From assembly GCA_017847725.1 (NCBI GenBank), contig JAGAXW010000011.1, positions 1-59,996 of the forward strand: a stretch of 59,996 nucleotides of DNA. The letters run 5' to 3'. Position numbers and translations under genes: made by a program. Shown piece after piece: positions 353 through 51,856 of this stretch (within the stretch, counting starts at the first letter, position 1; the number at the start of each line of letters is the position of its first letter). Below the pieces are notes generated by a model that did no database searches, was not told where the DNA came from, and saw nothing but the letters and a program-made list of their open reading frames with translations. This DNA comes from Prevotella sp. (lineage in GTDB: Bacteria; Bacteroidota; Bacteroidia; Bacteroidales; Bacteroidaceae).

Positions 353-2650
353 CTATCGAGTTTGATAACGAAGAAGTTCCTCACCTTTAAATACAACGGG
401 GGCTCCTTCTTGATAATCGGTGTCTGTATCAAGACGACATTCTGTTAGTATTTTCGCTAGATTAACATCTGGGCTTATCGACACCTCCTCGTCGAACACA
501 AAACAGAAATAGTTACCCTGTGGGTTCGGATATAGTGCTTGACGCATACGTTCCTCCGACATGACTGCGTGGTGATGTACGTGGAATACGCGATACTCGT
601 TCTTGAAATCTTCACCTAACCGATAGAGTATGACAAACTTGATACCGCCTTGCTCCAACTGGCTTCGTTTCATCGTACCAGCACGCTTCAGACCCTTGGT
701 GAATATCCTCACATTGTAGAGGTTCGTACCTTTGTCGTTGGCACCCATTATCCAATTCAGTTGAGCTTCGTCTTTGTAGCACCCGATGAGGAAATTATCC
801 TTCAAATAGCGCTGTACATAATGCAAAGTGAGGAGTGACTCTGGTACAACTACACCCTTTGCCTGCTGTTCCACCTTGGGCAACACAGATTCCGGGTTAG
901 TACCGACAGGACATTTCTCCATATAGAAATATGGGGCCAGCAAGGAAAGTGTTCTCTCGTTCTCGTTGGCGAAGCGTTCTCCGTTGTCTAAGGCCACAGA
1001 GTAATACTCCTGACTTCCAGTTTCTCCGTATGGGGTGTACACTTTGCCCAACAGTTGCTGGAAATTCTGCTGCATAAACTGCTCTGCGTTGACACTCTCG
1101 CGTGGAGTGATGGCATAAAACGAATAGTTGCTGTTTAGTTCGTCTTGAATGTTTTTCCTGAACAATTCCCTAACCTGCACTTTCCATGATGCTTTCGAGA
1201 AAGCATTATTGCGGGCATAGAGCGACAATACGTACAGAAAATTCACGTCATAGTGGGTAATGATCAGAGTATCCCTATCAAACAGTCTGTTCTCAAACTG
1301 ACGTGCATTGAACACAGTCTCACGTCTTCTCAGGTTGTCGTTCTCGAAACTCAGTTTTTTATCTACGAATGCCGAGATAAAGAAATTGGGAATGATGTTG
1401 TAGCCTTCGGTTGTCTCGTCGCGCAGCCAGATGTTCTTGGGATTATCCTTCTGTTTCTTCGCTTCATCGCCTGAGAGGAAGAGGTCAAGGTTCCACTGAA
1501 TCACATTTCTAGCATAGGTGTACTGTTTGTACACTGATTCGTCACCTACAGTCGAACCTATCTTGTAGTATTTGCTGTCACCTATATAATATATCTCCTT
1601 TTGCACCTGCTTCTGCATGGCACCGGGGTATACCAGGTCGGCAAAGGTGTACATGTGGTCCACCCGTTTACCGTCTTTCTGTTCCTTAAGTCCCGATGGA
1701 ATGTCCTTGCTCCCCACCAGTTCGTCGATGATGGCCTCAAAGACGATATTGAAGTTCTGCGCCAGCAAGTATTCTTTCTGATCGTCACGCACATTGATGG
1801 CGTGCGACTTGTCGAAAAAAGCATAGCAGAGTTCCCATAGGCGCAATGCTTTATCAGAGAAATATTTGTATCGTATCTGACGCATACGCACTCGTCCATA
1901 TCCGTCAAGGTAATGTCTGAACTTGGAACCCGTTATCAGCTCGAACCCCATATTGATATTCACGCGGAATCCGTAGTGGTTCGAGATGTAGTTCAGAATA
2001 GAAAAGTAGATGATGAACAGCTCCTCGTCGAAATTGACCTGCTTTTTCTTGTTGACGGGTCGCAGATAGACGGGTACGCCGTCCTGCACGATGGCTTGCG
2101 AGTGGGCGATGGTGCGCCTCCAGTTGATTTTGTTATAGCCTGAGTGGATGCTCTTCAGCACAAACAGCACGTAGTCCTGGTTTTCACGGTTGAAACGTAT
2201 CAGTTCCAGAATGATGTCCAACAGCGTGTCGCTCAGCCGTTGCCGTCGGTTGCCTATCTGTGCGATGTTGCGTTCCAACAGGATGTTCTGGTCGGGATGG
2301 GTCTCACGGTAAATCATCAGCGCCCGGTACACCCATACTGCCAGTTCGCATACAAAACCGCGCTGTGCAGCATTCATCTTGCCGTCCTTGTCGCTCACGC
2401 AGATGATGTCCTCGGGCTTCTCGCCAAAAACCCTATCGTCGTCAACGCCCTCCGTACCTTTTTCCTCCAGTACCACCTTGGGTAGGAAGAAAATGTAGTC
2501 CTTCAGCATGGGAGAATAGACATGACCGACATAGTTGTAACACACGAAACCGTCGCTCGGGCGCCGGTGATACTCTATCAGTCCGTCCGTCACCTGCTCA
2601 CGCTCTAAGACAGCAGGGTCGTAGTAATATCCTTCTATCAGGACCTTCAT
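353..2650 (-). CDS. LlaJI/McrC-like restriction nuclease subunit
   Basis: A 765-residue protein directly behind the McrB-like gene (6 bp gap). I read a PD-(D/E)xK-type nuclease core: Asp331 in RVDHMYTF, then a strand ending in GDSKYYK with Asp358 and Lys360. This is the layout of McrC and of the second subunit of LlaJI-type restriction systems, which cleave DNA when driven by a McrB-like GTPase. The long N-terminal part (residues 1-300) has no motif I can name and may bind DNA or the partner. The C-terminal 200 residues may be a further recognition domain. Together with the 5mC methyltransferase this suggests a GTP-dependent restriction-modification system rather than a stand-alone methylation-dependent McrBC, but both readings are possible. 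Confidence 0.82.
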   Translation of the reverse strand: MKVLIEGYYYDPAVLEREQVTDGLIEYHRRPSDGFVCYNYVGHVYSPMLKDYIFFLPKVVLEEKGTEGVDDDRVFGEKPEDIICVSDKDGKMNAAQRGFVCELAVWVYRALMIYRETHPDQNILLERNIAQIGNRRQRLSDTLLDIILELIRFNRENQDYVLFVLKSIHSGYNKINWRRTIAHSQAIVQDGVPVYLRPVNKKKQVNFDEELFIIYFSILNYISNHYGFRVNINMGFELITGSKFRHYLDGYGRVRMRQIRYKYFSDKALRLWELCYAFFDKSHAINVRDDQKEYLLAQNFNIVFEAIIDELVGSKDIPSGLKEQKDGKRVDHMYTFADLVYPGAMQKQVQKEIYYIGDSKYYKIGSTVGDESVYKQYTYARNVIQWNLDLFLSGDEAKKQKDNPKNIWLRDETTEGYNIIPNFFISAFVDKKLSFENDNLRRRETVFNARQFENRLFDRDTLIITHYDVNFLYVLSLYARNNAFSKASWKVQVRELFRKNIQDELNSNYSFYAITPRESVNAEQFMQQNFQQLLGKVYTPYGETGSQEYYSVALDNGERFANENERTLSLLAPYFYMEKCPVGTNPESVLPKVEQQAKGVVVPESLLTLHYVQRYLKDNFLIGCYKDEAQLNWIMGANDKGTNLYNVRIFTKGLKRAGTMKRSQLEQGGIKFVILYRLGEDFKNEYRVFHVHHHAVMSEERMRQALYPNPQGNYFCFVFDEEVSISPDVNLAKILTECRLDTDTDYQEGAPVVFKGEELLRYQTR

Positions 2651-2656
2651 TCTTCG

Positions 2657-4426
2657 TCAGTCTTGGTTCTCTATCCTAATATTCCATCCGGCATTGTTCA
2701 CGGCATCCATAAACTTGCCAATGTTCCCGATGCCAAACTGTGTCGAAAGGTATATCTTCTCGCCGTTGGATAGTTCAAACTCCGTAGCTCTCTTGTTGCT
2801 GTCGGTGGAGTCTTTGGTGCGAGCATTGTATTCCGCTTCGGTTTCTACCAGATGTTGCACATAGTCCTTCAGCCCCAGCCCGTTCCACGCCTGTGCTATT
2901 GTCTGTGCGTCTGCATCAGGGTGAGCCTCAATGTATAGTCTGAACGCCTCACGGGTCATTTGGGCTTTGTTCAGGTTGTCTGTGCCGTTCACGCGGTATC
3001 TCGACTTGTCCCGCTGACGCTTGGTGTTGGGAGTGGTGTCGGATACCGCCGTCGTGCCATCATCCGAATGTTCAAAAGGAAAGACCTCCAGGTCTTGTAG
3101 GAATTTGATGACCATGTTGGTGTCAACCGTTCCGTCGTGGTGGAAGAACTTACGGAAAGGCAGCAGTTCTCCATCGCTGTCCTTGAACGCTTTGTGGTTT
3201 GTCTCGTTGTCCTTGAAGACATCGTTCCACAGATAGAAGATGACCTTGCTCACAAATGTCTCCACGGAGATTCTGCCGTTTTTGGCTTTTGCAAAGAAGT
3301 AGCCTAATTTCTTATCTTCCGAGTGGGTGGTGCTCTCTATGATAGCGTTGATTGCCTCCAAGAAGCTCCACCAGTCGTATTGGTCGTTGTCAATCTCGAT
3401 GACGTAGTTTTTCTTTGCATCAGCAATAGGCATATACACCCACTCCCAACGGCGCTTAAAGGCAGAGTCGATGGGAAACAGGCTTTGGTCGCTGGTGTTC
3501 ATCGTGGCCCAGATGTGCAGGTTGTTCGGCAAGAGTAACACTTCTCCACTGAGCACTTCCTGCACGATGTCTCTGCCGTCATATAGGCTATTGATGCTTT
3601 CTGCATTCTCGATATCTACTCCTCCAAACAGCCGTTTCAACTGTTTCTGCATGTCTGCGTCAGCCTGAATGGGATAATCGGAATAACCATAATCGTTGCG
3701 GTCAAGCAGTTGAAATAGGTCACCAAAGATTTGAGCACAGTTGCCTCGGTTGATTTCCTCAATCACGAGGAACTGTTTCTTCGGCATGCCACCTTTCGCC
3801 TCGGCAACCTTCTCCCATGCGGCGACGTATGCTTGCAGGAAGGCTTGACAGACGAACTCGTAACTGATGCGTTTCTCTTCTCGTCCTGTTTCTACAGCTT
3901 TGTCTCCGATGACGGCAAGCACGGGTGCGAACTCTGTTGTTGGCTTGTAAGTTCCGACAAATGTCGAATAGTCTGTGTCGGGATGGAAAGTCGTGCGTAT
4001 CACATCCTCGCCCTTCGTCTGCTCTTTAATGATGTGTGACTTGCCAGTGCCAGGTGCACCATAGAAAATTTGCTGTAGAGCTCTTGAACAAATGCCCTTA
4101 TTTGCTTTCTTTTCCTTCCGAGCGTCTATAAAAAGTTTCTTCGCATTAAGATAACATTGATAAAATGCAACAGCATTAGAATACTGATTCTTTCCTTTTT
4201 GATTATAATCTATATATTGTTGTAGTTTGTTTAATCTCTCCACAACAGAATTAAACTCCTCTGGATCATCAAAATCCAATATGGACAAATCGCCTCTATT
4301 GGGAAACAATAAAGTCAAGCATTCGTTGATGCGTTTGAAATCGCTATAATTGTTTGCACTATTGGGATTACGTGTACATTTTAAGAGAAATTCTCTATAT
4401 AGTTCTATTTGTTTATCTCTGTCCAT
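2657..4426 (-). CDS. McrB/LlaJI-like AAA+ GTPase restriction subunit
   Basis: A 589-residue AAA+ protein. Walker A is GAPGTGKS near residue 121; Walker B and the McrB-family signature follow in the stretch LVIEEINRGNCAQIFGDLFQ, and MNTSDQSLFPIDSAFKRRW holds the sensor-1 Asn and the arginine finger region. In this family the motor hydrolyses GTP and pulls DNA towards the McrC-type nuclease encoded next. Residues 1-115 are AT-rich and lysine-rich without a recognisable domain; the C-terminal 110 residues look like a small separate domain. The base composition changes near position 4080, between the N-terminal part and the motor, which suggests a mosaic origin. The gene has its own promoter-like sequence, so mcrBC-vsr may be transcribed apart from the upstream genes. 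Confidence 0.88.
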   Translation of the reverse strand: MDRDKQIELYREFLLKCTRNPNSANNYSDFKRINECLTLLFPNRGDLSILDFDDPEEFNSVVERLNKLQQYIDYNQKGKNQYSNAVAFYQCYLNAKKLFIDARKEKKANKGICSRALQQIFYGAPGTGKSHIIKEQTKGEDVIRTTFHPDTDYSTFVGTYKPTTEFAPVLAVIGDKAVETGREEKRISYEFVCQAFLQAYVAAWEKVAEAKGGMPKKQFLVIEEINRGNCAQIFGDLFQLLDRNDYGYSDYPIQADADMQKQLKRLFGGVDIENAESINSLYDGRDIVQEVLSGEVLLLPNNLHIWATMNTSDQSLFPIDSAFKRRWEWVYMPIADAKKNYVIEIDNDQYDWWSFLEAINAIIESTTHSEDKKLGYFFAKAKNGRISVETFVSKVIFYLWNDVFKDNETNHKAFKDSDGELLPFRKFFHHDGTVDTNMVIKFLQDLEVFPFEHSDDGTTAVSDTTPNTKRQRDKSRYRVNGTDNLNKAQMTREAFRLYIEAHPDADAQTIAQAWNGLGLKDYVQHLVETEAEYNARTKDSTDSNKRATEFELSNGEKIYLSTQFGIGNIGKFMDAVNNAGWNIRIENQD

Positions 4427-4661: not shown

Positions 4662-5315
4662 TTATAATGATGTATCAACGAGTATGTCATTAATTACTAA
4701 GGAACCATCTCCTTTGACTACCAGATTATCCCGATTAGTTTGGAATAACTGCCTCTGAAACGCATCCAAAGATTCATTATATATAGCATTGTCGTATGAG
4801 AGTTCCAAATCTGCCTTAGACTCATTTACAGTTTTACCAGAAAGAAACGCTGAGATAAAAGACGTTACAATCTCAGTAGTAACATCATCTATTCCATAGG
4901 GACAATTCGCATAGTCGGTATATCCTACAAATGCTTTTGCATTGTTAGCCATTATAGCATCAGCCAAATCATTGCCATTCAAGCATGAAAAGGTATATAT
5001 AAGTGCATTTGAGAATACGTAATAATTCTCAGTTGTCGTTACCACATCTTCATCAGCAATTCTAAAACTGTCTGCCTTACCATGACCATACCAGAAACAC
5101 AGAAAGGGTTCGCTATTAACAAGCGACATTTTCTCTGAAAGATTTTGCTTTGTAATAGAATCTGACAGATATGTGTTGTTTACTGAAACAATATCTTCAT
5201 GAGCAACAGTGTATTGCTCCAGCAATTGAATTGTGGAATTTTTCATCATCACAAAAAGTTCTGCAATGTCACACGATTCAGAGTCATCTGCAAGAATAAC
5301 TGAATTTAATTTCAT
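4662..5315 (-). CDS. Small caspase-like (clan CD) putative protease
   Basis: A 217-residue protein with no family I can name, but with the marks of the caspase/CHAT/gingipain fold: a strand ending in WYGHG (His78), then 33 residues later a strand ending in TFSCLNG (Cys111), followed by LADAIMANNAKAFVGY, the helix-and-strand pattern that in CHAT and C25 peptidases follows the catalytic Cys. No signal peptide or membrane segment is present, so it should act in the cytoplasm. Its ATG overlaps the stop of the receiver gene by 4 bp, which indicates translational coupling and a joint role. I infer that it is the effector of the kinase/receiver pair, perhaps cutting a cellular protein when the system is triggered. 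The fold call is fairly sure; proteolysis and substrate are inference. Confidence 0.7.
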   Translation of the reverse strand: MKLNSVILADDSESCDIAELFVMMKNSTIQLLEQYTVAHEDIVSVNNTYLSDSITKQNLSEKMSLVNSEPFLCFWYGHGKADSFRIADEDVVTTTENYYVFSNALIYTFSCLNGNDLADAIMANNAKAFVGYTDYANCPYGIDDVTTEIVTSFISAFLSGKTVNESKADLELSYDNAIYNESLDAFQRQLFQTNRDNLVVKGDGSLVINDILVDTSL

Positions 5316-5917
5316 TCCTTCCGCATATTATTAGTAAATAATTCTGTGGCAAGACTCAAGACGCCCCGTGTAGTCTCTTTTCCGAACTCATCTTGTTTGC
5401 GTATAGAGGCAAGAATTTCGTTCAGCGTATATACTTTGTCTCCAGAGCGCATATAGGGTTTATTCCTTTTTTCTTCACTCTGTTTCAATATCCATTTCTC
5501 CATCACTGAACGGATGTCGTTTTGTATCCGATCGTATGCATTACTGATTGCAGCAAGGAGTTCTTCAGTAGTAGCATCTTTAGGAACACAACTGAAGGCA
5601 TGGCCTTTAAACATCTTGCTTGCCTCAACGGCATCAATAGTTGCGCCAGTAAAGACAATCACCGGAACCAAGACGGAAATACTATCTATATCATTGAGCA
5701 CATCCGTTCCTTGCAAAGAACTACTATTGAATTTCCAATCGAGGATGACAACTATATTATGGTCGAGATGGCCTTTAATATATGACAAACCATCGGCCGG
5801 CTTTTCAAAACACTGAATATCGTCAACATCGTCCCTGACATCATCAAGAAACGCGTCTTCCTTCATTTTTGCATCATCGTCTATATAGACAATGGTTAAA
5901 TTCATTTTCTTTTCCAT
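5312..5917 (-). CDS. Receiver-domain response regulator without DNA-binding output
   Basis: Residues 5-120 form a receiver domain: acidic pocket Asp13-Asp14-Asp15 after strand 1, phospho-acceptor Asp60 in VVILDWKF, Thr90 in IVFTGAT and Lys113 in VPKDAT. The remaining 80 residues are helical, carry charged stretches and do not resemble any known DNA-binding output domain. The gene starts 3 bp after the stop of the kinase gene and overlaps the caspase-like gene by 4 bp. Without a DNA-binding domain it is more likely to pass the signal by protein contact, with the caspase-like protein the nearest candidate. A free-standing regulator that dephosphorylates or buffers the kinase is an alternative. 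Confidence 0.85.
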   Translation of the reverse strand: MEKKMNLTIVYIDDDAKMKEDAFLDDVRDDVDDIQCFEKPADGLSYIKGHLDHNIVVILDWKFNSSSLQGTDVLNDIDSISVLVPVIVFTGATIDAVEASKMFKGHAFSCVPKDATTEELLAAISNAYDRIQNDIRSVMEKWILKQSEEKRNKPYMRSGDKVYTLNEILASIRKQDEFGKETTRGVLSLATELFTNNMRKE

Positions 5918-5920
5918 ATA

Positions 5921-8062
5921 CTAATGTATTAATGGTATAACAATCTTAAAAGTAGCACCCGTAGGTTTGAACTCGTTGGGTTCAAGGGTAATTGTACCTT
6001 TTATAGAGTCCAATCTGGTACGTATAATATATAGTCCCAAGCCTGCTCCTCCCAAATCGGCAGTTGTTGTATAGAACACGTCGAAAATCCTGTCACGGCT
6101 TTCCTCTGGGATACCAGGTCCGTTATCTGAAAACAGCATGACAAGATTATCTTTATCCCTATAAACAGAACACTTGATTCTCTTGATTTCTGTATTGCGC
6201 AGTGCCTTAACAGAATTGTCAATCAGGTTGCCAAACATATCTTGAAAAGCTTTTTTGTTATATGACAATTCAAAGTCGTCTTCAACTACATATTCTGCTT
6301 TTATGCTCTCTTCTTCAAAAAGAAATCTGTACCTGTCTTCAAATAATTCTTCTATTGCTTCTTTGATACTAAAGAACTCAAACGTAGAATCATCTTCTGC
6401 ATAACTTAACATGAAGTTCATAGCCTTGGACAAATTATTCATCTCGTCAAAAACCCGTCGAGCATGCTTTACGGACTTGTCGTATTTTTGTCCTAAAGGT
6501 ATCCATTTGGCGACAAATTCAGCAGAACGTTTGATGATACCAATGGAAATCCGGAGAATATGAGATATCTGTCCAGCATAAGCCTGCAGAGAGACCAAAC
6601 TGAACATTATATTTTCTTGCTGCCGCTTATCTTCTTCCAATTTTTCATAGTCCTTGGATGAAGCGGAAACACTCTCTTTTATCGAACCAAGTCGTGATGT
6701 GATTTCCTCCAACTCTGCTTCAACCTCTGGAGAAGCAAAAAATGCTTGGCTTTTTATTCGGTTTATTTTTTGCTTAATATTTTCAATATCTCCATCAGCC
6801 TTCTTTAACCGCTCGGCATTTTTTTGTTTCTTAGAGTCTTTTTCATGCTTTAAATAAAGCTCAATCTGGTGAATCTGATCGATGACGAATGCTTTTAAAG
6901 CTGTCCATTCTTTATTGTCTACGAAATCTTGTCTATTCGTGGAATCCTTTATTTCCGGATTAAGCTCGTCCTTAATATCTACCCACCCTATAATGTCTCG
7001 TGTACTCAGTTTCTCAAAAAAGCCAGACCAACGGCGTTTGTCTATGCCAAATAAGTCTTTTTGTTCATCTCGGCTGGACTTGTATTCAGCAAAAGGAGTA
7101 GCAATGATGCTATCCCGATATACTTTAACGCCATCTATACGATCTTCTTTTGTAAAATGTTTCTTCCCTTCTTGGTCGTAATAATAAATGGTAAATCCGA
7201 TAGGTCCAAACACTTCTGCTTCTTTTTCCTTGACAAGAAGTTTTCCTTTTTCTTCCTTTAAATACTCTTGATAGTACTTGCCTTCATTCTCATCGTATCG
7301 ATAGTGCAATATAAAGGATAAAGTAGCCTTAGCCAAAACTACACTTTCCACAGACTTGTTATCATAATCCTTGTATTCGGGTACATGAAAACATATACCA
7401 AATGGATATTTGACATTTTGAGTCGGTCTGACAATTTTTGAAAGTTCACGATAGGCACGAATAACGTCTCTTTCAAGCCAAACATCATTTAACGCTGATA
7501 TCTCTAATCTTGTTCCTTGGACACCAATCTCCGCAGGCTCTGTCCAATACTTATTATCAATATCGGTAAACAATTTCTGTTCTTCTGGAGAATCTTCAAA
7601 ATTTAACTTTAGCTGTCGGTCTTCTTCCTCAGAATATTTAGTCCAGTCAGTCTCCAAGCAATGCCATACCGATGAGCCTTTCTTTTTGGTTTTCATCACC
7701 AACTTTCCACCGAGTTTGTCAACGGCAAAACGGCCTACTCCCTTTTTACCAGCGACAACACGATTGTAGGGTGCAGGGGACACTCTCTTCCTTCTTTTGC
7801 TACTAGTTCCAATTACCATCCATTTATCTCGGATATCAGCAAAAGCCATCCCCATACCATTGTCCTCTATGATGATACGGCTCTGATTTGATAAAGGATT
7901 CAAATGCTCAAATGTAACATCCACTTTTTCTGCATTGGCATCATAGCAATTTTTCACGAGTTCGAATAAAGCCGTGATTCTATCTGTTATCAGCTCTCTC
8001 CCCAACAAACGGAAGGTACTGACATCAAATTTGAAACGTAATGTAGAAGGATTATTCTCCAT
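5921..8062 (-). CDS. Double-GHKL protein: MutL/MORC-like ATPase fused to a histidine kinase
   Basis: 713 residues carrying two separate GHKL ATP-binding modules. The first (about residues 15-190) has ELVKNCYDAN, IIIEDNGMGM and GKKGVGRFAVDKLG, as in MutL/Hsp90/MORC ATPases. A middle region of about 200 residues and a coiled coil (about 400-480) follow. Then comes a DHp-like helix with QISHILR, in which His501 is the likely phospho-acceptor, and a C-terminal catalytic domain with FGNLIDNSVKAL, FSDNGPGIPEE and GAGLGLYIIR. There is no membrane segment, so it senses something in the cytoplasm. MutL/MORC-type ATPases linked to restriction-modification operons are known; a fused histidine kinase with a receiver partner is less usual. 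The start overlaps the methyltransferase stop by 11 bp, tying it to that gene. Confidence 0.85.
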   Translation of the reverse strand: MENNPSTLRFKFDVSTFRLLGRELITDRITALFELVKNCYDANAEKVDVTFEHLNPLSNQSRIIIEDNGMGMAFADIRDKWMVIGTSSKRRKRVSPAPYNRVVAGKKGVGRFAVDKLGGKLVMKTKKKGSSVWHCLETDWTKYSEEEDRQLKLNFEDSPEEQKLFTDIDNKYWTEPAEIGVQGTRLEISALNDVWLERDVIRAYRELSKIVRPTQNVKYPFGICFHVPEYKDYDNKSVESVVLAKATLSFILHYRYDENEGKYYQEYLKEEKGKLLVKEKEAEVFGPIGFTIYYYDQEGKKHFTKEDRIDGVKVYRDSIIATPFAEYKSSRDEQKDLFGIDKRRWSGFFEKLSTRDIIGWVDIKDELNPEIKDSTNRQDFVDNKEWTALKAFVIDQIHQIELYLKHEKDSKKQKNAERLKKADGDIENIKQKINRIKSQAFFASPEVEAELEEITSRLGSIKESVSASSKDYEKLEEDKRQQENIMFSLVSLQAYAGQISHILRISIGIIKRSAEFVAKWIPLGQKYDKSVKHARRVFDEMNNLSKAMNFMLSYAEDDSTFEFFSIKEAIEELFEDRYRFLFEEESIKAEYVVEDDFELSYNKKAFQDMFGNLIDNSVKALRNTEIKRIKCSVYRDKDNLVMLFSDNGPGIPEESRDRIFDVFYTTTADLGGAGLGLYIIRTRLDSIKGTITLEPNEFKPTGATFKIVIPLIH

Positions 8063-9113
8063 AACTCAATATTTTTTCAAACACAGCCTTAGCCAATAGC
8101 GGTGGTACTGCATTACCTATTTGTTGCTGTATATGCATTAAACTTCCTTTAAAGATAAATACATCCGGAAAACTTTGCAAACGTGCAGCTTCTCTTACAG
8201 ACAATCCCCTATCTTGGAAAGGATGAATCAGCATATTTTTCCGATAATTCGAAATAACTACCGACGGTTCATCTGCTCTCAATCGTCTATAAATGCCACT
8301 ATGACAATTTGCTTTGTTTGCATAGTTTTGCATCAGGTCATCGGGTATAGCCTCCCAATTCTGGCCCTGGGCAATAAAATGATATCTTTCAATAACATAA
8401 TCTGCATTCCGTGACACATAGTTTTGGCGACTTCGCTTTGAACCCTTACGCATTATCCTTGCATATTTGCTGGCTTTGTTTGCTGGCAGCTTATAAGATA
8501 AGGTATCCACCTGCTGGCCATTCGTGAGATCAGGTAAATCTCCTATTGCATCATTGACCGTAATCTTTGTTCCAAATGGCTCTGGATATTCAAACTTTAT
8601 TCCAAGTCTATTACCAACCATAAAGAAACGATTACGATGCTGAGGTACCCCATAGTCTGAGGCCCAAAGTACTTTAGGGAATACCAAATAACCCATGTCA
8701 CTAAAACGTTGTTCTACCAGATGCTGAATCTTTCCTTCCTCAAAATGAGCAAATCCTTCAACATTCTCAAACAAGAACCAATCAGGCTGGATTTCATTAA
8801 CAAAACGCAAGAACTCTTCAAATAGTGAATTATTAGGGTTCTTCATGTTTCGAGTCATTGTATTTGATAAAGAAAACCCCTGACATGGTGGTCCTCCAAA
8901 TACTATCGACACATGCTCATTAGGTAACAAATAATCTTGAGGATTAATATTGTGTATATCATTCTCTATAACAAGAGTATTAGGATGGTTATACCTATAT
9001 GTGTTCGCTGCGCTTTTGTCCTTTTCAACAGCAAACCTAACTTGAAAGCCTGCCATTTCAGCTCCCAAGCTTAGACCTCCAGCTCCGCTAAATATATCTA
9101 TTCCTATCGGCAT
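8052..9113 (-). CDS. dcm: C5-cytosine DNA methyltransferase (Dcm/HhaI type)
   Basis: 353 residues with the conserved motifs in order: I DIFSGAGGLSLG, IV GGPPCQGFS with the catalytic Cys, VI FENVEGF, VIII YGVPQHRNRFFMVG, a variable target-recognition region of about 100 residues, IX VREAARLQSFP and X QQIGNAVPPLLA. It transfers a methyl group from AdoMet to C5 of cytosine in a recognition site that cannot be read from the sequence. It is complete and looks active. The start follows the stop of the small HTH gene by 2 bp, a typical arrangement of control protein and methyltransferase in restriction-modification operons. Vsr at the far end of the operon fits a 5mC-producing enzyme. Confidence 0.96.
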   Translation of the reverse strand: MPIGIDIFSGAGGLSLGAEMAGFQVRFAVEKDKSAANTYRYNHPNTLVIENDIHNINPQDYLLPNEHVSIVFGGPPCQGFSLSNTMTRNMKNPNNSLFEEFLRFVNEIQPDWFLFENVEGFAHFEEGKIQHLVEQRFSDMGYLVFPKVLWASDYGVPQHRNRFFMVGNRLGIKFEYPEPFGTKITVNDAIGDLPDLTNGQQVDTLSYKLPANKASKYARIMRKGSKRSRQNYVSRNADYVIERYHFIAQGQNWEAIPDDLMQNYANKANCHSGIYRRLRADEPSVVISNYRKNMLIHPFQDRGLSVREAARLQSFPDVFIFKGSLMHIQQQIGNAVPPLLAKAVFEKILSYGE

Positions 9114-9115
9114 AC

Positions 9116-9316
9116 CTATTCCGTGATAAGTTCTCGTTTTTCACATCCAATCAATTCGGCAATCTTAGCCAATGTCTGTAAGTCGGGCTGATGCATATTG
9201 GTACACCACTTGCTGACAGTTACAGCAGAGACACCTAACTGTTCTGCCAACCATTTGCTCGTCTTCTGGTTCTCCACAAGAACTACTTTAAGCCTATTAA
9301 GAGGTCTTTCGTTCAT
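9116..9316 (-). CDS. Small XRE-type HTH control protein of the restriction island
   Basis: 66 residues from the ATG at 9316 (MNERPLNRLK); the frame remains open upstream to another Met at 9370, but that would overlap the promoter. The HTH is TSKWLAEQLGVSAVTVSKW followed by MHQPDLQTLAKIAELIG, the typical lambda-repressor/C-protein fold and size. Control proteins of this kind bind an operator in front of their own gene and set the timing of methyltransferase and nuclease expression. An inverted repeat ACCAA-5-TTGGT covers the -33 element of its promoter, in line with self-repression. It is the first gene of the operon. Confidence 0.88.
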   Translation of the reverse strand: MNERPLNRLKVVLVENQKTSKWLAEQLGVSAVTVSKWCTNMHQPDLQTLAKIAELIGCEKRELITE

Positions 9317-9339
9317 CTTTATTAAATTAAAATCGAGTG

Positions 9340-9380
9340 CAAATATAATAAAAGAATGTGATATCACCAAATTTATTGGT
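9340..9380 (-). promoter_or_regulatory. Promoter and putative operator of the defence operon
   Basis: On the minus strand TTTG (9371-9368), a 20-bp spacer and TATATTTG (9347-9340) give a well-formed Bacteroidetes promoter, with transcription from about 9335 and a leader of some 19 bases. The -33 element sits inside the inverted repeat ACCAA (9366-9370) / TTGGT (9376-9380), which extends imperfectly outwards on both sides. A protein bound there would block the promoter; the HTH protein encoded first in the operon is the natural candidate. Confidence 0.6.
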
Positions 9381-13902: not shown

Positions 13903-14790
13903 ATGAAAGGTATCGTATTAGCCGGAGGCAGTGGTACACGCCTCTACCCCATTACCAAGGGTGTGTCGAAGCAACTGATTCCCATCTTCGACAAGCCCAT
14001 GATTTATTACCCCATCTCAACGCTGATGCTGGCCGGCATCCGCGAAATCCTGATTATCTCGACACCCTACGACCTGCCTGGTTTCAAGCGCCTGCTGGGT
14101 GACGGGGCTGAGCTGGGCGTACGCTTCGAATATGCCGAACAGCCTTCGCCCGACGGACTGGCCCAGGCCTTCATCATTGGCGAGCAGTTTATTGGCGACG
14201 ATTGCGTCTGTCTCGTACTGGGCGACAACATCTTCTATGGCAGCGGATTCACCGGCATGCTGAAACAGGCCGTCAAGAGCGCTGAGGAAGAAGGACGCGC
14301 CACAGTCTTCGGATATTACGTCAACGACCCCGAGCGCTATGGCGTGGCCGAGTTTGATGCCAACGGCAACTGCCTCTCCATCGAGGAGAAACCTGCCAAG
14401 CCCAAGTCCAACTATGCCGTGGTGGGCCTCTACTTCTACCCCAACAGTGTGGTGGAGATTGCCAAGAACATCAAGCCCAGTGCCCGCGGTGAACTGGAGA
14501 TTACCACCGTCAACCAGAAATACCTGCAACAGAAGAACCTGCTGGTGCAGACGCTGCAGCGTGGCTTTGCATGGCTCGACACAGGTACACACGACTCACT
14601 GAGCGAGGCCTCTACCTTTATCGAGGTCATCGAGAAGCGCCAAGGGCTGAAGGTGGCCTGCCTGGAGGAAATCGCCTACAAGCGCGGCTGGATAGACCGC
14701 GACCAGCTGAAAAAACTGGCCGAGCCGATGGCTAAGAACGACTACGGCCAGTATCTCTTGCGTCGCGCAGAGGAGAACGCTGTCAGATAG
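13903..14790 (+). CDS. rfbA: Glucose-1-phosphate thymidylyltransferase
   Basis: 295 residues from the ATG at 13903. The frame is open further upstream, but the TATATTTG promoter box at 13865-13872 puts transcription near 13878, so the upstream Met at 13870 is excluded and 13903 fits the family start [16 protein letters not shown]. The nucleotide-binding loop LAGGSGTRL, the [11 protein letters not shown] block and VLGDNIFYG are all present. It makes dTDP-glucose from dTTP and glucose-1-phosphate, the first step to dTDP-rhamnose; rfbD is found at 35.2 kb but rfbB and rfbC are not in the window. Its end overlaps the convergent kinase-fusion gene by 8 bp. Confidence 0.96.
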
Positions 14791-16717
14791 CGTATTCCGC
14801 GACGCAGCGCTGCAGGGTCTTGGGATTGCCCATATCGTACATCACGCCGTTCAGGCGTACACCTATCATGCCGCTCTTCTGGCGCACCGCCTCAAGAGCG
14901 GCAGTCAGTTCTATCTCGCGCTGCGTGTCACCGCTGGCATTGGCCTGCTGGATGTCAGTTTCCAACTGAGCGAAGACCTCGGGCGTTAGGATATACTGTC
15001 CGAATACACTGTAATACTCCTTCTTACCTTTGTCGTTACGTACGCCCAGATAGCACTCGGCATAGCTGGACGAGGGTTTTTCCTGCATCTTGGAGACATT
15101 GAGCACGGTACGTTCCTTATTTTCCCATACACCAGACAGCAGACCGTAATGGTTTACTTCTTCCAATGGAATCTGGTGGATACTGACCAGCAACTGGTTG
15201 TGGCGCTCATACTCCTCTATCATCTGCAGGGCACAGGGTTTGTTGGAGTTGCTGTGATAGAGCGTGTCACCCAGCAACAGCATGACGGGCTCGTTGCCGG
15301 CAAACGCGGCCGCCTGGTAGACGGCATGCCCAAAGCCGCGCTTCTCGTTCTGGTAGACATAGCGCAGGCGTTTGCCGATGTTGAGGATGCGGTTCTCATA
15401 CTCCTGCGCCTCGGGCGTCAATTTGTGCAGGTGTTCCTCTGACAGGGGGCGCTCAAAAAATTCTGTATACAGCTTTCGTTCCTCCTTGGAACCCAGTACC
15501 AGACAGATTTCCTCAATGCCACTCTCCACCAGTTCCTCCAGCAGAATCAGTATCACGGGACGTACCATACCGTCGGGACAGGGAATGGGAAAGAAGTCCT
15601 TCTTCAACCCTCGGGTGGAAGGGTACAGACGAGTACCAAAGCCAGCCACGGGGATAATGGCCTTGCGCACCGCATGGACAGGATGTAGCGTGAGTGCATA
15701 GGCACGCATTCCCTGTGCGTTCAGATAGTCGATGAGCTGTTGCTGGGCCTCAGCGCCGCGCGCCAGGAACTGCACAGAGCCGTCGCCATGGGAACCGACA
15801 CCCTTGCCGCCATATACCAGCGGCTGTATCTGCGGGTCGGCCAGTACCTGATGCAGTTTGGGGGCAACTAGTGCAGGAGACATGGGGGTGATGTATTTCT
15901 CAAACATATCCTCTGCGTCAGTCATCAACTTTCCTAACGACTCGGCATCGCCCTCAGCGAGATACTTGACGGCCTTCTTGACGATTTTGCGGTTCCACTC
16001 GCCCAGCGCTTTATGCAGGAGTTTCTCTGCGTCGGTGGTGGCAAAGGGGTACGACTTGTTGAGGTCGGAGAGAATCCTGATAGTATCCTTCTCGGCACAC
16101 AGGTCGGCAAAGACCCAGTAGAGCGTCTTCTTCACGTTGAGCGTCTTGACCTCTATCTCGTCGCCGTCGAACATCATCAGGTTGGGTTTCACGCCAAAGG
16201 CGCACGCCTGGTCCAGACGGCCACAGCGCGACGAGGTGCGCAACTCGCCCAAATAGGCAATGTTCATCTCGCCCAGCGTGTTGAGGTTGAGGTTATACAA
16301 CAAGTTGAACGCGCGCGCCACGAGTACGCAGATGGCTGCCGACGACGACAAGCCGCTTTTCATGGGCAGCGTCATTTCCGTGATGCGGATGTGCACACCG
16401 CCCACCTTATACCACTCTAGCATATAGCTGGCTACTCCTGCGCAGTAGCAGAAGAAAGACCCCGACTTGGCGATGCGCTTCAGTTCGCCCTCATTCATAC
16501 GACACGAGAAATTGCTCCATACGCTCTTTATCTCGGGGGCGTCGCTGCTCATCTCGAAACGTGACGCCTTCTCTACCTCCGCATAGATACCCTGTTCGAT
16601 ACCCGTAACGATAGAGACACCGGGCTGAATGTCAGCATTCATCGTGCGATAATGGCCAGCCCAATCTGTGTGTTCTCCAAACAGGCACAAGCGGCCTGGA
16701 ACAAAAAGTTTTAGCAT
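14783..16717 (-). CDS. Fusion of GHMP sugar kinase and GalU-like nucleotidyltransferase
   Basis: 644 residues from the ATG at 16717 ([19 protein letters not shown]). The N-terminal half (about 1-340) is a GHMP kinase with the galactokinase-like GEHTDW start, the ATP loop GLSSSA and the third motif [11 protein letters not shown]. The C-terminal half (about 355-644) is a nucleotidyltransferase with [23 protein letters not shown], as in UTP-sugar-1-phosphate uridylyltransferases. One protein could therefore phosphorylate a free sugar at C1 and then activate it to an NDP-sugar, a salvage route. This resembles the fucose salvage enzyme Fkp in logic but has the opposite domain order and a GalU-like partner. 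Given the pectin genes, galacturonate, galactose or arabinose are candidate substrates; none is proven. Confidence 0.85.
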
Positions 16718-16722
16718 TGTCC

Positions 16723-16766
16723 TTTGTGTATCTTTGGTGTTGAAAATATGCACAAAGATACACAAA
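16723..16766. repeat. 14-bp inverted repeat over the kinase-fusion promoter
   Basis: TTTGTGTATCTTTG (16723-16736) and its exact reverse complement (16753-16766) are 16 bp apart. Each arm contains TATCTTTG, the -7 element, so on the minus strand the right arm is the promoter box of the kinase-fusion gene. It may be an operator dyad or a pair of opposed promoters. Confidence 0.6.
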
Positions 16767-16798
16767 ATATCTGAAAAAGTCATTTTTTCACAAAATTA

Positions 16799-41542: not shown

Positions 41543-42980
41543 ATACAACACCGCGAGTCGTACCATCCTGGCCGACCTCTATACACCGGTTGCAGTCTAT
41601 ATGCGACTGCGCGACATCTACCCCCAGAGTGCACTTATGGAGAGTTCCGACTACCATGAGAAGGATAATGCACGCTCCTTCATCGGTATCAATCCGATAG
41701 CGAGCGTGGCCGTCGGACACGGAATAGCCACCGTCAGTTACCCCGACGGCAGCCAGCTCCAGCAGCCGCTTACAGCGGACTTCACGACGGCCGAAGCCAT
41801 CCACGCCCTTATCGACCGCATAGAGGTAGAGGGGGAGCATGCCCACTATTGCGGGCTCTACGGCTACACCTCATTCAATGCCGTTCGCTACTTCGAAGAC
41901 ATTGCCGTCAAGGACGAGACACAGGAAAAGAACGATGCCCCCGACGTGCTGTACATACTCTACAGGGACATCATTGTCTTCGACCATTTCAACAACCGAC
42001 TGACGGTGGTAAGCCTCTCGGAGGAAGCGGAGAGCACAGAACCCGACCAGATACTACGGGCCATGAACAAGGCCAACGTGCAGGCATACGACTTCCATCC
42101 CATCGGCGATGTCAGCAGTCCGCTGACCGATGAGGAGCACAAGGCCAACATCCGCCGTGGCATCCAGCACTGCCTGCGTGGCGACGTCTTCCAGATAGTC
42201 CTCTCGCGCCGTTTCATCCAGCGCTACGAGGGCGACGACTTCAAGCTCTACCGCGCCCTGCGCAGTGTGAATCCCTCGCCCTACCTCTTCTATTTCGACT
42301 TCGGCGGCTTCCGTATTTTCGGCTCCAGTCCCGAGACGCACTGCCGCATCGTCGCCACCCCAGCCACTCCTCCCGACGGTTCTCCGTCGGGCTCCATGTC
42401 GGACTCCTTCCTCGCCTACATCGACCCCATCGCCGGAACGACCCGCAGAACGGGCAATGCCGAGAAAGACCGCGAGGGTGCCGAGTTCCTGCGCAACGAC
42501 CCCAAGGAGAATGCCGAGCACGTCATGCTGGTAGACCTGGCCCGCAACGACCTCAGCCGCAACTGCCACCATGTGAAGGTAGACTACTACAAGGACGTCC
42601 AATACTATTCACACGTCATCCATCTGGTCAGCCGCGTCAGCGGACAACTCAACGCCGGCGCTGACCCCATCAAGGCCTTTATCGACACCTTCCCCGCCGG
42701 CACCCTGAGCGGTGCCCCCAAGGTGCGCGCCATGCAGCTCATCTCTGAGTACGAACCCCACAACCGCGGTGCCTATGGGGGCTGCATCGGCTACATCGGA
42801 CTGAACGGCAGCCTCAACCAGGCCATCACCATCCGCACCTTCGTGTCGCGCAATGGCGAGCTGTGGTTTCAAGCCGGTGGCGGCATTGTGGCCAAGAGCA
42901 ACGAAGAATACGAACTACAAGAAGTCAACAACAAACTTGGCGCACTGAGGAAAGCCATCCTCATGGCCGAACAACTATAA
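41529..42980 (+). CDS. trpE: Anthranilate synthase component I
   Basis: 483 residues of the chorismate-binding family: an N-terminal tryptophan-sensing part (LMESSDYHEKDNARSF carries an LLES-like motif), then FQIVLSRRF, SPETHC, YIDPIAGTTRRTG, LVDLARNDLSR and GAPKVRAMQLI. It makes anthranilate from chorismate with the TrpG amidotransferase encoded 7 bp downstream. Odd feature: between SSPETHCRI and AYIDPIAGT there are about 17 extra residues (ATPATPPDGSPSG and flanks) where relatives have only a few. They are encoded by an in-frame palindromic element at 42354-42391, also found in the GH28 fusion gene. The frame stays intact, so the enzyme is probably active. Confidence 0.97.
   Translation: METFKYNTASRTILADLYTPVAVYMRLRDIYPQSALMESSDYHEKDNARSFIGINPIASVAVGHGIATVSYPDGSQLQQPLTADFTTAEAIHALIDRIEVEGEHAHYCGLYGYTSFNAVRYFEDIAVKDETQEKNDAPDVLYILYRDIIVFDHFNNRLTVVSLSEEAESTEPDQILRAMNKANVQAYDFHPIGDVSSPLTDEEHKANIRRGIQHCLRGDVFQIVLSRRFIQRYEGDDFKLYRALRSVNPSPYLFYFDFGGFRIFGSSPETHCRIVATPATPPDGSPSGSMSDSFLAYIDPIAGTTRRTGNAEKDREGAEFLRNDPKENAEHVMLVDLARNDLSRNCHHVKVDYYKDVQYYSHVIHLVSRVSGQLNAGADPIKAFIDTFPAGTLSGAPKVRAMQLISEYEPHNRGAYGGCIGYIGLNGSLNQAITIRTFVSRNGELWFQAGGGIVAKSNEEYELQEVNNKLGALRKAILMAEQL
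42354..42391 (+). repeat. In-frame palindromic coding element, copy in trpE
   Basis: The 38-bp copy encodes ATPATPPDGSPSG. Its right half is the perfect hairpin CCCGACGG-TTCT-CCGTCGGG (42372-42391). Compared with the other copies the stem has A and T in place of C and G at paired positions, a compensatory change that keeps the stem. Confidence 0.8.
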
Positions 42981-49900: not shown

Positions 49901-51856
49901 GAGTACAAGAAGCCCAAGAAAACCACCCATGCCACCGCTGCCACCCCTCCCGCCGGTTCTCCGGCGGGCACAACAAGCTCTCCCGCAGCCCCCTCCCCCC
50001 GCAACATCGCCGCCACAGAATACTTCCGCGTCAATCCCCACCGCCTCAACCTCGGTGCCATCGGTCTCCGTCTGCAGCATGCCGACGGCCGTCCCGTAGC
50101 CCTGAGCGAGCTCACCGACATCCGCCAGCAGCTCTCGTTATGGAATGGCCAGATAGAGTCCGCCTATAAGATTGACGGCCAGCCCGTCAGCGTGGTCACC
50201 ACAGCCCACCCCGACCACGACGCCACCGCCTACCGCATCAGTTCGCCCCTGCTCGCAAGCGGCCGTGCCCGAGTCACCCTCCGTCTGCCCTATCCCACCG
50301 GCCGCCATGCCGACGATGCCAGCGACTGGACCGCCGTCAACAAGCATACAAGCCGCATCGTCGAGCAGAGTGCCGCCAGTGCCGTCATCGAGCACCGCCT
50401 CGACACCACCGTCTATTACATCCGCCTCAGTTGGGAGGGCCCTGCCACCATCGCCGCCACCGCCCCCCACGAATACACCATCACCCCCACCACCGCCGAC
50501 CTCTCCCTCGTCGCCGAATACACCGCCACCCCAGCCACCTCTCCCGCCGGTTCCCCGGCGGGCACAGCATCCTTCTCCGCCGTCCAGAAAGCCGCCCACA
50601 AGTTCTGGCACAAGTTCTGGACCACCACAGCCTTCGCCGACTTCGGCCGCTGTACCGACCCGCGCGCCAAGGAACTGGAGCGCCGCGTCGTACTCTCCCA
50701 GTACCTCACCCGCATCAACTGCGCCGGCAACATGCCGCCCCAAGAGACAGGCCTCACCTATAACACCTGGTTCGGCCGCCCCCATCTGGAGATGACGTGG
50801 TGGCATGCCGTCGACTTCGCCCTTTGGAACCAGCCGCAGGTGGTAGCCCGCATGCTGCGCTGGTACGACGACACCGCAGCCCCCATAGCCCGTAAGATTG
50901 CCGAGCGGCAAGGCTTCAAGGGCCTGCGCTGGATGAAGATGACCGACCCCTGGGCCGGCGAGGCACCGTCGAACACAGGCTCCTTCCTCACATGGCAGCA
51001 GCCCCACTACATCTACCTGGCCGAGGAGATGTACCGCGCACAGCCCGGCACAGAGACGCTGCAGCGCTATGCCGCCAACGTAGAGGCCACGGCCGACTTC
51101 ATGGCCGACTTTGCCGCCAGCGGCCATCTCTTCGGACAGACCGCCATGCAGGAGTGCATGACCAAGGACATCAGCTACGACCACCCCTTCGAGCTGGCCT
51201 ACTGGCGCTACGGCCTCAGCATCGCCCAGCAGTGGCGTGAGCGCAGGGGCCTGCCCCGTCGCAGCGACTGGGATGCCGTGATGGCACGCCTCGCCCCCCT
51301 GCCCATGAAGGACGGCATCATCACCGCCGGCCTTCCCAAGGGCAAGACCACCGGCCTCGCCCCCTTCGACCCCTTCGCCACCACTGCCGCCGGTTCTCCG
51401 GCGGGTCCCACCGAGACCTTCGCCGAGAAGACGCGCAACGACCACCCCGCCTGCATCGCCCCCTTCGCCATGCTCCCCGCCACCCCAACCACCCCTCCCG
51501 CCGGTTCTCCGGCCGGCCAATCCACCCTCCGCTGGGTCATGCAGAACTGGAACTGGCAGACCACGTGGGGCTGGGACTACGGCATGATAGCGATGGCCGC
51601 AGCCCGTCTGGGCATGCCTGACGTCGCCCTCGACGCCCTGCTTATCGACACGCAGAAGAACACCTATCTCAAGAACGGCCACAACTTCCAGACGGCCGAC
51701 CGCCTGCGCCTCTACCTGCCCGGCAATGGTGCCCTGCTCACCGCCGTCGCCATGATGTGTGCCGGCTGGGACGGCTGCACCGAGGTGCTCAACCCCGGCT
51801 TCCCCAAGGACGGACGCTGGCAGGTGCGCTGGGAGGGACTGCACCGCATGCAGTAA
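46946..51856 (+). CDS. Giant pectinase: GH28 + GH105 + third glycosidase-like domain
   Basis: 1636 residues from the ATG at 46946 (MKRLFQTLLLCTLVALGLQA, signal peptide). Residues about 30-470 are a GH28 polygalacturonase beta-helix with NGDGCDPES near 257, GDDCIAIKSG near 279, GHGGVVIGSE near 319 and RIKTN near 353. Residues about 500-890 are a GH105 unsaturated rhamnogalacturonyl/galacturonyl hydrolase (NLDNIRTGHF, GLSQHCWGRAQGWYTMAL). Residues about 892-1636 have a beta-sandwich followed by a Trp-rich helical part (TYNTWFGRPHLEMTWWHAVDFALW), like (alpha/alpha)6 glycosidases of the GH65/GH95 kind, family uncertain. Linkers hold PAGSPAG insertions from palindromic elements. One chain could cut the backbone and trim its ends. 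The C-terminal tail of the other secreted enzymes is absent. Confidence 0.88.
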   Translation: MKRLFQTLLLCTLVALGLQAQGWNAQQYKQIEQSIRMPQFANTVYDITKYGAKPTATAAKNQKAIQKAIDKCSAKGGGRVVVPAGKKFLTAAIQLKSGVNLVIEEGAVLEFAFQPELYPIVPTRWEGLDCWNLSPLIYAYKAKDIAITGRGTIDGGGSNQTWWPWCGNKRFGMKEGGIAQNMGARARLLKQAEDGVDMDQRRFGPKDGLRPQMINFNQCNGILIENVTLLRSPFWVIHPLLSQDITVRGVHINNDGPNGDGCDPESCDRVLIENCFFNTGDDCIAIKSGRNNDGREGGQGRFAGTPSKNIIIRGCKMQNGHGGVVIGSEISGGCQNVYAENCEMDSPSLDRVLRIKTNSCRGGIIENINMRNINVGQCREAVLKINTDYEPREICCRGFYPTVRNVTMENVTCKRSKYGVMIVGYQDEKLSNTINNINVRNCHFDGVHDKPVHQVGRAENVTYDNLVVNGSLVLQNPPYKHYSEWLTYSEMKRVPKSYLLDFSKKPKWSYVMGIELEGMLDTYLKYGGEDIRKYCQEYTDTMINQKGDIRGYNILDYNLDNIRTGHFVTRMYQNWPEQKNLLAMQTMMKQLQNQPRTIADKVYWHKAIYAYQVWLDGIFMGLPFRTLTAPITTPKAKAKKHRATPAISPAVLAIYDDAVNQLKITYQRTLDPKTGLNRHAYDETRKTFWADRQTGLSQHCWGRAQGWYTMALIEVLDALPADYARRAEVIDLLQKDFDAILKWQDKQTGVWYQVMDAPGREGNYLESTCSSMFAYALLKAYRKGYVGEKYRDAGIRAYKGIIKNFIKVNVDKTISLTNCCAVAGLGPAATPEVQAAMKQVNPKGSVKENRKRDGSYQYYLSEPIRDNDAKGVGPFIWASLEMEMLGYTTENITASIDREAVLFRNSPVITQADTLASLTVGNGHFCTTVDITGLQTYVDDYKNGIPLNAMSDWGWHAFPNTESLTPAETEKSYDFGHGHPEVYAIEYKKPKKTTHATAATPPAGSPAGTTSSPAAPSPRNIAATEYFRVNPHRLNLGAIGLRLQHADGRPVALSELTDIRQQLSLWNGQIESAYKIDGQPVSVVTTAHPDHDATAYRISSPLLASGRARVTLRLPYPTGRHADDASDWTAVNKHTSRIVEQSAASAVIEHRLDTTVYYIRLSWEGPATIAATAPHEYTITPTTADLSLVAEYTATPATSPAGSPAGTASFSAVQKAAHKFWHKFWTTTAFADFGRCTDPRAKELERRVVLSQYLTRINCAGNMPPQETGLTYNTWFGRPHLEMTWWHAVDFALWNQPQVVARMLRWYDDTAAPIARKIAERQGFKGLRWMKMTDPWAGEAPSNTGSFLTWQQPHYIYLAEEMYRAQPGTETLQRYAANVEATADFMADFAASGHLFGQTAMQECMTKDISYDHPFELAYWRYGLSIAQQWRERRGLPRRSDWDAVMARLAPLPMKDGIITAGLPKGKTTGLAPFDPFATTAAGSPAGPTETFAEKTRNDHPACIAPFAMLPATPTTPPAGSPAGQSTLRWVMQNWNWQTTWGWDYGMIAMAAARLGMPDVALDALLIDTQKNTYLKNGHNFQTADRLRLYLPGNGALLTAVAMMCAGWDGCTEVLNPGFPKDGRWQVRWEGLHRMQ
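48872..48896 (+). repeat. Degenerate left half of the palindromic coding element
   Basis: The sequence encoding ATPAISPA matches the left half of the copy at 50525 with about two differences, in the same reading frame. The hairpin half is missing. It lies in the GH105 domain, in a place where relatives have a short loop. Confidence 0.5.
49931..49968 (+). repeat. In-frame palindromic coding element, copy 1 in the pectinase gene
   Basis: It encodes ATAATPPAGSPAG. The hairpin is CCCGCCGG-TTCT-CCGGCGGG (49949-49968), an 8-bp perfect stem with a four-base loop. Confidence 0.8.
50525..50562 (+). repeat. In-frame palindromic coding element, copy 2 in the pectinase gene
   Basis: It encodes ATPATSPAGSPAG. 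The stem (50543-50550 with 50555-50562) is perfect and the loop is TTCC. Confidence 0.8.
51377..51405 (+). repeat. In-frame palindromic coding element, copy 3 (shortened)
   Basis: It encodes ATTAAGSPAG and is three codons shorter than the others. The stem keeps seven of eight pairs (51386-51405). Confidence 0.75.
51479..51516 (+). repeat. In-frame palindromic coding element, copy 4 in the pectinase gene
   Basis: It encodes ATPTTPPAGSPAG. The right arm is CCGGCCGG, so the stem has one mismatch. Confidence 0.8.

Follow-up and report, generated by a model that had tools for sequence, protein, structure and literature searches.

Relation to Described Systems

ATPases of the MORC and paraMORC families have been described in restriction-modification (R-M) operons, where a GHKL ATPase is encoded together with a cytosine methylase and Vsr, and DNA looping with helicases and nucleases was proposed (Iyer, Abhiman and Aravind, 2008, PMC2292703); the terms receiver, caspase, and peptidase are absent from the available text of that paper. 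Two-component-like paraMORC pairs are formed by HEF_HK (PF19191) and Response_reg_2 (PF19192) proteins, with 91.6% linkage in 644 regions, among whose neighbors C5 methylases are prominent according to the available text (Bellieny-Rabelo et al., 2021, PMC8011034). The present analysis concerns a four-gene cassette on the minus strand (positions 4662..9113) of a 59,996-nucleotide stretch of Prevotella sp. DNA (contig JAGAXW010000011.1; the whole stretch is called the window), in which a C5-cytosine DNA methyltransferase, a double-GHKL kinase, and a receiver-domain protein are followed by a 217-residue caspase-like putative protease. The linkage of kinase, receiver, and methylase has precedent, whereas no precedent was found in the searched literature for the caspase-like partner or for a four-gene core to which nucleases are optional. 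No description of the cassette with its protease was found there, in a search that took in few subscription papers and no supplements, nor in the available portions of PMC7159879, PMC12137116, and PMC12839542.

The cassette resembles the HEF_HK pairs, as the accessible parts of that study present them, in its soluble kinase of HATPase_c_3, DHp, and HATPase_c domains with an adjacent receiver, in a C5 methylase often found upstream and in Vsr often found downstream; a term search of the main text of PMC8011034, as available, returned none of the words protease, peptidase, and caspase. It differs in that the window kinase and receiver do not match PF19191 or PF19192 at E values up to 1, a search of the window's genome with PF19192 returned nothing, and the H-box is mostly H-A/I-V/L-R and not H-E-F. 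Membership of the receiver in Response_reg_2 was rejected for want of a match, and the receivers here are ∼200 residues long, as against 528 and 547 residues for two Response_reg_2 proteins. The sequence-only reading of the window held that R-M-associated ATPases and histidine-kinase-based defense were known separately; for this parallel family the kinase, the receiver, and the R-M context had already been linked in 2021, at least in the available text of PMC8011034, and the statement therefore falls.

VcSduA, a Shedu protein with a GHKL N terminus, requires both its GHKL ATPase domain and its effector domain for phage defense (PMC12137116, available passages) and is alike in that a GHKL ATPase domain works with an effector domain. 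Unlike the cassette, it has as its effector a PD-(D/E)xK nuclease fused to the same protein, and those passages describe no phosphorelay. The BbrUII/HgiDII restriction enzyme model NF050001 gave no full-length match, aligning with residues 9–144 only and scoring 64.1 bits where the cut-off is 550. In the defense system Detocs, a kinase acts with a phosphate carrier and a receiver-effector. As in the putative relay of the cassette, the phosphate would finally reach a toxic effector, but Detocs is not known to include a methylase or such a protease; no Detocs-named model was among the PADLOC families listed for the window proteins (the first 25 for the methylase).

Organization and Conservation of the Cassette

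The first gene of the core cassette encodes the C5-cytosine methyltransferase (8052..9113, minus strand, as are all cassette genes; Pfam DNA_methylase, E 2.4e-71), and its open reading frame (ORF) overlaps by 11 bp that of the kinase (5921..8062), which consists of an N-terminal MutL/MORC-type ATPase (approximately residues 1–400), a linker, a DHp domain with His501, and a C-terminal HATPase_c domain. A 3-bp gap separates the kinase from the receiver (5312..5917; Asp14, Asp60, Thr90), and the receiver in turn overlaps by 4 bp the ORF of the putative protease (4662..5315; His78-Gly79 and Cys111). The sequence-only reading gave these positions and couplings exactly, as a re-check confirmed; its unit of 4662..8062 is right for the three trio genes and too short at the upper boundary, since the cassette starts at the methyltransferase.

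Kinase residues 1–404 were used as the query in a scan of contigs from 84,980 species, and the best 80 of 86 relatives were kept; ORFs were called in the kept loci and searched with profiles of kinase, receiver, and protease. The three genes were found in the same order in 71 of the 80 scan loci, giving with the window a set of 72 loci (L001–L014, which are duplicates of the window or of later loci or stem from separate genome searches, lie outside the counts), and in most of these the gaps or overlaps within the trio amount to a few base pairs. A C5 methylase abuts the kinase in 71 of the 72, at −76 to +16 bp, and the remaining contig begins at the kinase. The co-occurrence of the trio beside cytosine methyltransferases, proposed as a test of the sequence-only reading, is thereby borne out. 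Trio and methylase form a real, conserved cassette, wider than the three genes first claimed; a chance neighborhood, considered as an explanation of the trio, is ruled out by the same order in 72 loci.

Within the 72, the protease is truncated at the contig end in L074, and both receiver and protease of L078 have broken frames, with a 136-bp gap; these two and L060 were omitted from the protease and receiver alignments (A5 and A7) and from the identity comparison (68 loci) and kept in the 72. The nine scan loci without the trio include five with distant kinases (L088 and L091–L094; 25–35% identity) and other receivers, two in which the contig stops inside the kinase (L030 and L036), one near a contig end where the kinase ORF stops early beside an antisense ORF that looks by eye like a transposase fragment (L090), and one broken copy whose kinase frame is split and whose receiver is short (L082).

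Pairwise distances over the 68 loci correlate at 0.90–0.92 among the two kinase halves and the receiver, at 0.80–0.88 between these and the protease, and at 0.65–0.77 between the methylase and the other parts, best with the kinase N terminus (0.77). Because such correlations keep shared ancestry, they show co-inheritance and not contact. Mean identity over 81 close pairs was 0.83 and 0.86 for the kinase halves, 0.82 for the receiver, 0.80 for the methylase, and 0.65 for the protease, making the protease the fastest-diverging part. The median ratio of nonsynonymous to synonymous substitution rates (dN/dS) in the window's close group of ten was 0.04 for kinase, 0.06 for receiver, and 0.14 for protease, medians that are rough, as they come from 7, 9, and 28 usable pairs, respectively, out of 45, with dS near saturation.

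A Second Family and the Sacsin-type Arrangement

Weak matches of the protease profile led to a second, distant family (type B, the window's family being type A), in which another kinase, a 231-residue receiver-like protein, and a His-Cys protein of 240–250 residues stand in succession. The type A and type B proteases align over 170 columns with an hhalign probability of 96.6 and an E value of 4.9e-10, and the His and Cys are present in five of five type B members. A C5 methylase precedes the type B genes in L123 (3010–8734) and L124 (3861–9049), giving the same methylase-kinase-receiver-protease order; gene names in these two loci were assigned by eye, apart from the L124 kinase (Pfam). L123 also has Vsr and two more C5 methylases, and L124 lies among integrase- and transposase-like genes, with no effector or nuclease recognized downstream by eye and no Pfam match for its receiver or protease. 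The H-box of the type B kinase differs, by eye, from that of type A. Matches in 6 of 295 genomes of the order added three more type B members; L163 and L164 have the kinase-receiver-protease order, the contig of L165 ends at the protease, and the sixth match (L166) is not an intact ORF.

A further trio was observed in genome G188 (L009, 7060–11849), where an 1172-residue kinase with a Sacsin-type N terminus (PF25794) is followed by receiver and protease. A second trio in this genome has a frame-broken protease and lies near a gene that resembles, by eye, a type IIG enzyme. The G188 arrangement suggests that sensors are exchangeable on a fixed output.

The 217-Residue Protein and Clan CD

His78, Gly79, and Cys111 are each conserved in 71 of 72 loci and Gly131 in 70, the one miss at His78 and Cys111 being the L078 fragment, so these two residues withstood the conservation test set for them by the sequence-only reading. 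The His-Gly pair and the Cys are present in all 75 type A and B proteins aligned (two type A fragments omitted). His and Cys each stand where a hydrophobic stretch ends, an arrangement known from the caspase fold, and they follow successive core strands in the manner of clan CD (strands and stretches by eye). The proteins are like gingipain (C25), CHAT, and caspase domains in the pair itself and in the register of their profiles, and unlike them in being short and single-domain, with the window protein reaching no Pfam cut-off.

Profiles were compared with alignments of 14 Peptidase_C25 domains (one row left out for a frame problem) and 19 CHAT domains from genome searches, against 74 decoys (72 neighbor families and two reversed alignments). 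Type B scored 35.5 against Peptidase_C25 and the merged A and B profile 26.4 against CHAT, with none of the 74 decoys as high in either case. In these two comparisons, and in that of merged A and B with C25, the His residues align with each other, as do the Cys residues. Pfam gave a weak C25 match in 4 of 69 protease members (best E 6e-4). Other results of the same kind speak against the assignment: type A alone stayed at decoy level (C25 19.8, 4 of 74 decoys as high; CHAT 19.6, 6 of 74), type B scored 14.1 against CHAT (32 of 74) and merged A and B 20.0 against C25 (2 of 74), and the hhalign probabilities were modest even for the two best comparisons (37.6 for B with C25 and 8.1 for A and B with CHAT). 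The window protein gave nothing above chance in Pfam, no match in NCBIfam or PADLOC, and chance-level matches only in a sequence search of solved structures. We consider it highly probable that the 217-residue protein belongs to clan CD.

Kinase and Receiver

The two GHKL domains read from the window kinase were recovered by Pfam as HATPase_c_3 at residues 30–154 (E 1.1e-23) and HATPase_c at residues 604–711 (E 6.5e-26). The N-terminal half has the N, G1, and G2 motifs of a paraMORC/MutL-type GHKL protein, that is, a Bergerat-fold ATPase of the HATPase_c_3 type: Asn38, Asp67, Gly69, Gly71, Gly105, Gly108, and Gly110 are each present in 72 of 72 loci, and the kinase profile matches the MutL homologue PMS1 over residues 12–72 (E 1.9e-6). 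In the C-terminal half, His501 and Asn616 are likewise invariant (alignment of 72 loci; the kinase alignment A6 holds 61 of the 72 kinases), and the profile matches solved histidine kinases over the DHp and CA domains (approximately profile residues 483–702), with His501 in register with their H-box His. The double-GHKL histidine kinase of the sequence-only reading is thus upheld.

The window receiver matches Pfam Response_reg with an E value of 3e-6 and 27.8 bits, below the curated cut-off of 30.2; its NCBIfam matches lie far under their cut-offs, and PADLOC gave none. Asp14, Asp60, and Thr or Ser at position 90 are found in 72 of 72 receivers. Lys113, the third residue named in the proposed intact phosphorylation site, is not a family feature, being present in 30 of the 72. 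In the C-terminal tail of the receiver (window 5312–5530, ∼70 residues), which has no family match, lie four of the eight invariant or near-invariant columns of alignment A7 (Glu140, Trp142, Arg173, and Gly179); this tail is a likely contact to the protease.

At seven loci (L088, L091, L092, L094, L096, L097, and L099) proteins with the GHKL and kinase halves are followed by receiver-like proteins of 360–375 residues, with no separate protease. The C-terminal parts of these, which matched no family in the four of the seven loci scanned, may hold fused effectors. GHKL proteins of ∼630–740 residues adjoin C5 methylases on viral contigs L098, L101–L105, and L107, some with a Vsr-like gene (by eye), and the cassette kinase-half profile has no match in them at E values up to 1.

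Restriction and Other Downstream Genes

In the window the cassette is followed, on the same strand, by a McrB-like AAA subunit (2657..4426; AAA_5, E 1.7e-8, with matches to PADLOC type II restriction endonuclease models; cluster c1), a LlaJI-type restriction endonuclease subunit (353..2650; RE_LlaJI, E 5.3e-6; cluster c2), and a Vsr-type endonuclease gene truncated by the contig start (1..342; named from its membership in cluster c3 and its translation by eye, without a family scan), all three being optional accessories. With its C5 methylase and its McrB-like and LlaJI-like subunits the window has the gene content of a LlaJI type II R-M system, of putative specificity. It departs from such systems in the kinase-receiver-protease block placed between these genes, a block that occurs elsewhere without these subunits.

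Counted over genes within ∼9 kb of the cassette, McrB/LlaJI-type clusters occur in 16 of the 72 loci, clusters c4 and c7 in 9 (the c7 representative combines DUF2357 and PDDEXK_7; c4 has no Pfam match), Vsr in 13, and further downstream C5 methylases in 16. Where 3 kb or more of downstream sequence is available (56 loci), McrB/LlaJI or c4/c7 clusters are present in 23. Dependence of the cassette on LlaJI subunits was considered and rejected on the count of 16. Single loci have EcoRII (L033), MutH-like (L076), ResIII (L025), Mrr_cat (L079), AbiH (L041), CHAT (L050), or HD-CE with ORC-CDC6-like (L029) genes downstream, and a protein kinase with TPR follows in L049 and, by cluster, in L056. In L059 and L060 the proteases are 100% identical and the restriction genes behind them differ. 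The CHAT-domain protein of L050 (13601–15799, 732 residues, Segatella copri) lies 262 bp downstream of the cassette and is a possible substrate of the small protease. No recognized nuclease was found among the scanned downstream genes of L024, L026, L031, L035, L040, L044, L053, and L086, whose downstream genes are of housekeeping or transfer type (tryptophan synthase, TonB receptors, ClpP, TraG, relaxase, integrase).

The core accordingly looks to be four genes (methylase, kinase, receiver, and protease), with nucleases optional. Since the restriction subunits are optional, their failure cannot be the general trigger, as the sequence-only reading had it in proposing that the protease is released when restriction fails. 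Of the remainder of that interpretation, a phosphorelay-type pair followed by a clan CD-like protein is supported, with co-inheritance of the cytosine methyltransferase in addition; DNA sensing, suicide, and activation are putative roles.

Distribution and Mobility

The cassette is rare and patchy. Besides the window's own genome, the protease was found in 3 of 199 related genomes and the receiver in 2 of 395 genomes of the class; the protease profile matched 4 of 149 relatives of G188 (G188 itself, G766, and, as type B, G230 and G800) and, in 395 genomes of the phylum, the window's protein and one of type B. Hosts are gut and environmental Bacteroidetes with a conserved four-gene cassette; record titles are mostly of Bacteroidota and include Treponema (L031), another spirochaete (L069), Kapaibacterium (L063), and Aminicenantes (L080). 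Plasmids and phages searched with the receiver and plasmids searched with two proteases gave no match, phages lying outside the protease search. Viral contigs gave 13 distant GHKL proteins with the kinase N terminus, none with the trio, and no relative of the type B protease.

Parabacteroides goldsteinii (L065) and Hoylesella timonensis (L067) belong to different families. Their cassettes are 99% identical in the kinase N terminus and 95% in the protease and adjoin the same recombinase clusters, a sign of recent transfer. Recombinase cluster c5 lies near 8 of the 72 loci, and Phage_integrase, TraG, and relaxase are among the 25 of 55 downstream-gene families listed.

Proposed Function and Alternatives

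The cassette has the look of a DNA-methylation-guarded switch for defense or suicide, possibly one that cuts proteins rather than DNA. We put at about even chances a methylation-guarded phosphorelay that switches on a clan CD-like protease, most likely against phages or plasmids. The methyltransferase would mark the host's own sites, and the MORC/MutL-type ATPase half could work as a DNA clamp powered by ATP, which the methylation state of the DNA would license or block, a role suggested by its ATPase family and its coupling to the methylase. Upon engaging unmarked or invading DNA, the kinase half would autophosphorylate on His501 and pass the phosphate to Asp60 of the receiver, a transfer we infer from the conservation of both residues. 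The phosphorylated receiver would then, via its conserved C-terminal tail, bind and turn on the small His-Cys protease, whose putative cuts would halt growth or kill the cell.

Several observations weigh against this scheme. In HisKA kinases an acidic residue (Asp or Glu) directly follows the phosphoacceptor His, whereas position 502 is neither in any of the 72 kinases. The switch Lys (Lys113) is present in only 30 of the 72 receivers, and with both features the relay may be unusual or weak. The Sacsin-type trio of G188 has no adjoining methylase, so methylation is not the sole possible input. The faster change of the protease also fits weak constraint. At least 25 of the 72 loci have restriction-type clusters downstream and others have single nucleases; L079, considered as a stand-alone cassette, was dropped because of its Mrr_cat nuclease, and for the loci in which no nuclease was recognized the family scan covered downstream genes, so that a nuclease partner could sit upstream.

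A bolder reading, judged less likely than not, is a nuclease-free analogue of restriction, in which the methylase marks self and a DNA-sensing kinase fires a caspase-like protease through the receiver, the sensor being exchangeable (MORC, type B, or Sacsin) and the output kept. Self/non-self discrimination on DNA would then be executed on proteins. If the methylation-guarded relay is correct, DNA-methylation self-recognition, two-component phosphotransfer, and caspase-type proteolysis would be united in one compact mobile cassette, bacteria would have, in a receiver-driven cytosolic protease, a counterpart of the cell-death pathways that sense DNA, and the clustering of MORC-type ATPases with cytosine methylases would be explained.

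The protease might instead be an activator and not a killer, clipping and so activating a neighboring effector (McrB/LlaJI, PDDEXK_7, CHAT, or others) in the manner of an initiator caspase once the relay has switched it on. A variable, effector-rich downstream slot (the McrB/LlaJI and c4/c7 clusters and loci L050, L041, L033, L029, L049, and L056) and the identical proteases of L059 and L060 before different genes would suit this role. We consider it unlikely; several cassettes have housekeeping or transfer genes and no recognized effector downstream, as by eye has L124.

The cassette could also be a selfish, R-M-like addiction module: once the methylase is lost, chromosomal sites would go unmarked, self DNA would set off the kinase, and the protease would kill the cell, which would keep the element in place. 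The mobile contexts noted above and the coupling of the methylase as an antidote-like gene in 71 of 72 loci are consistent with this. It uses the same parts as the methylation-guarded defense relay and differs from it only in selective benefit; nothing in the present data separates the two. Addiction as the benefit is judged unlikely.

That the 217-residue protein is no protease at all, and is a different kind of alpha/beta enzyme, or a receptor domain, in which His and Cys are retained for reasons of another kind, would account for the window protein's lack of a family match, its chance-level structure-database matches, and the failure of type A alone to rise above decoys. The invariance of His-Gly and Cys in 75 of 75 proteins, their register with C25 and CHAT, and their places at the ends of hydrophobic stretches (by eye) speak against this reading, which is judged improbable. 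Least probable is a regulatory circuit, with the kinase-receiver pair governing the methylase and restriction genes in their expression or timing and the His-Cys protein clearing away a repressor. In its favor, gene regulation is the usual role of two-component pairs, and helix-turn-helix (HTH) cluster c8 is present in 7 of 72 loci, the window included; against it, Pfam detects no output domain for DNA binding in the receiver of the window, and several cassettes have no recognized restriction gene downstream.

Other Features of the Window

The c8 member in the window is a small Cro/C1-type HTH regulator (9116..9370, minus strand; HTH_26, E 3e-9) directly upstream of the methyltransferase. Elsewhere in the window, one minus-strand ORF (14783–16783) fuses a GHMP (galactokinase-like) domain with a nucleotidyltransferase domain. 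A GC-rich stretch of 61 nucleotides occurs in five copies (42354–42414, 49931–49991, 50525–50585, 51368–51428, and 51479–51539), with 64–80% identity to the reference copy, and encodes an in-frame AGSPAG-like linker, with four of the copies in a 1655-residue protein of pectin degradation and the fifth in a trp-type gene (by eye); it might be a dispersed in-frame repeat.

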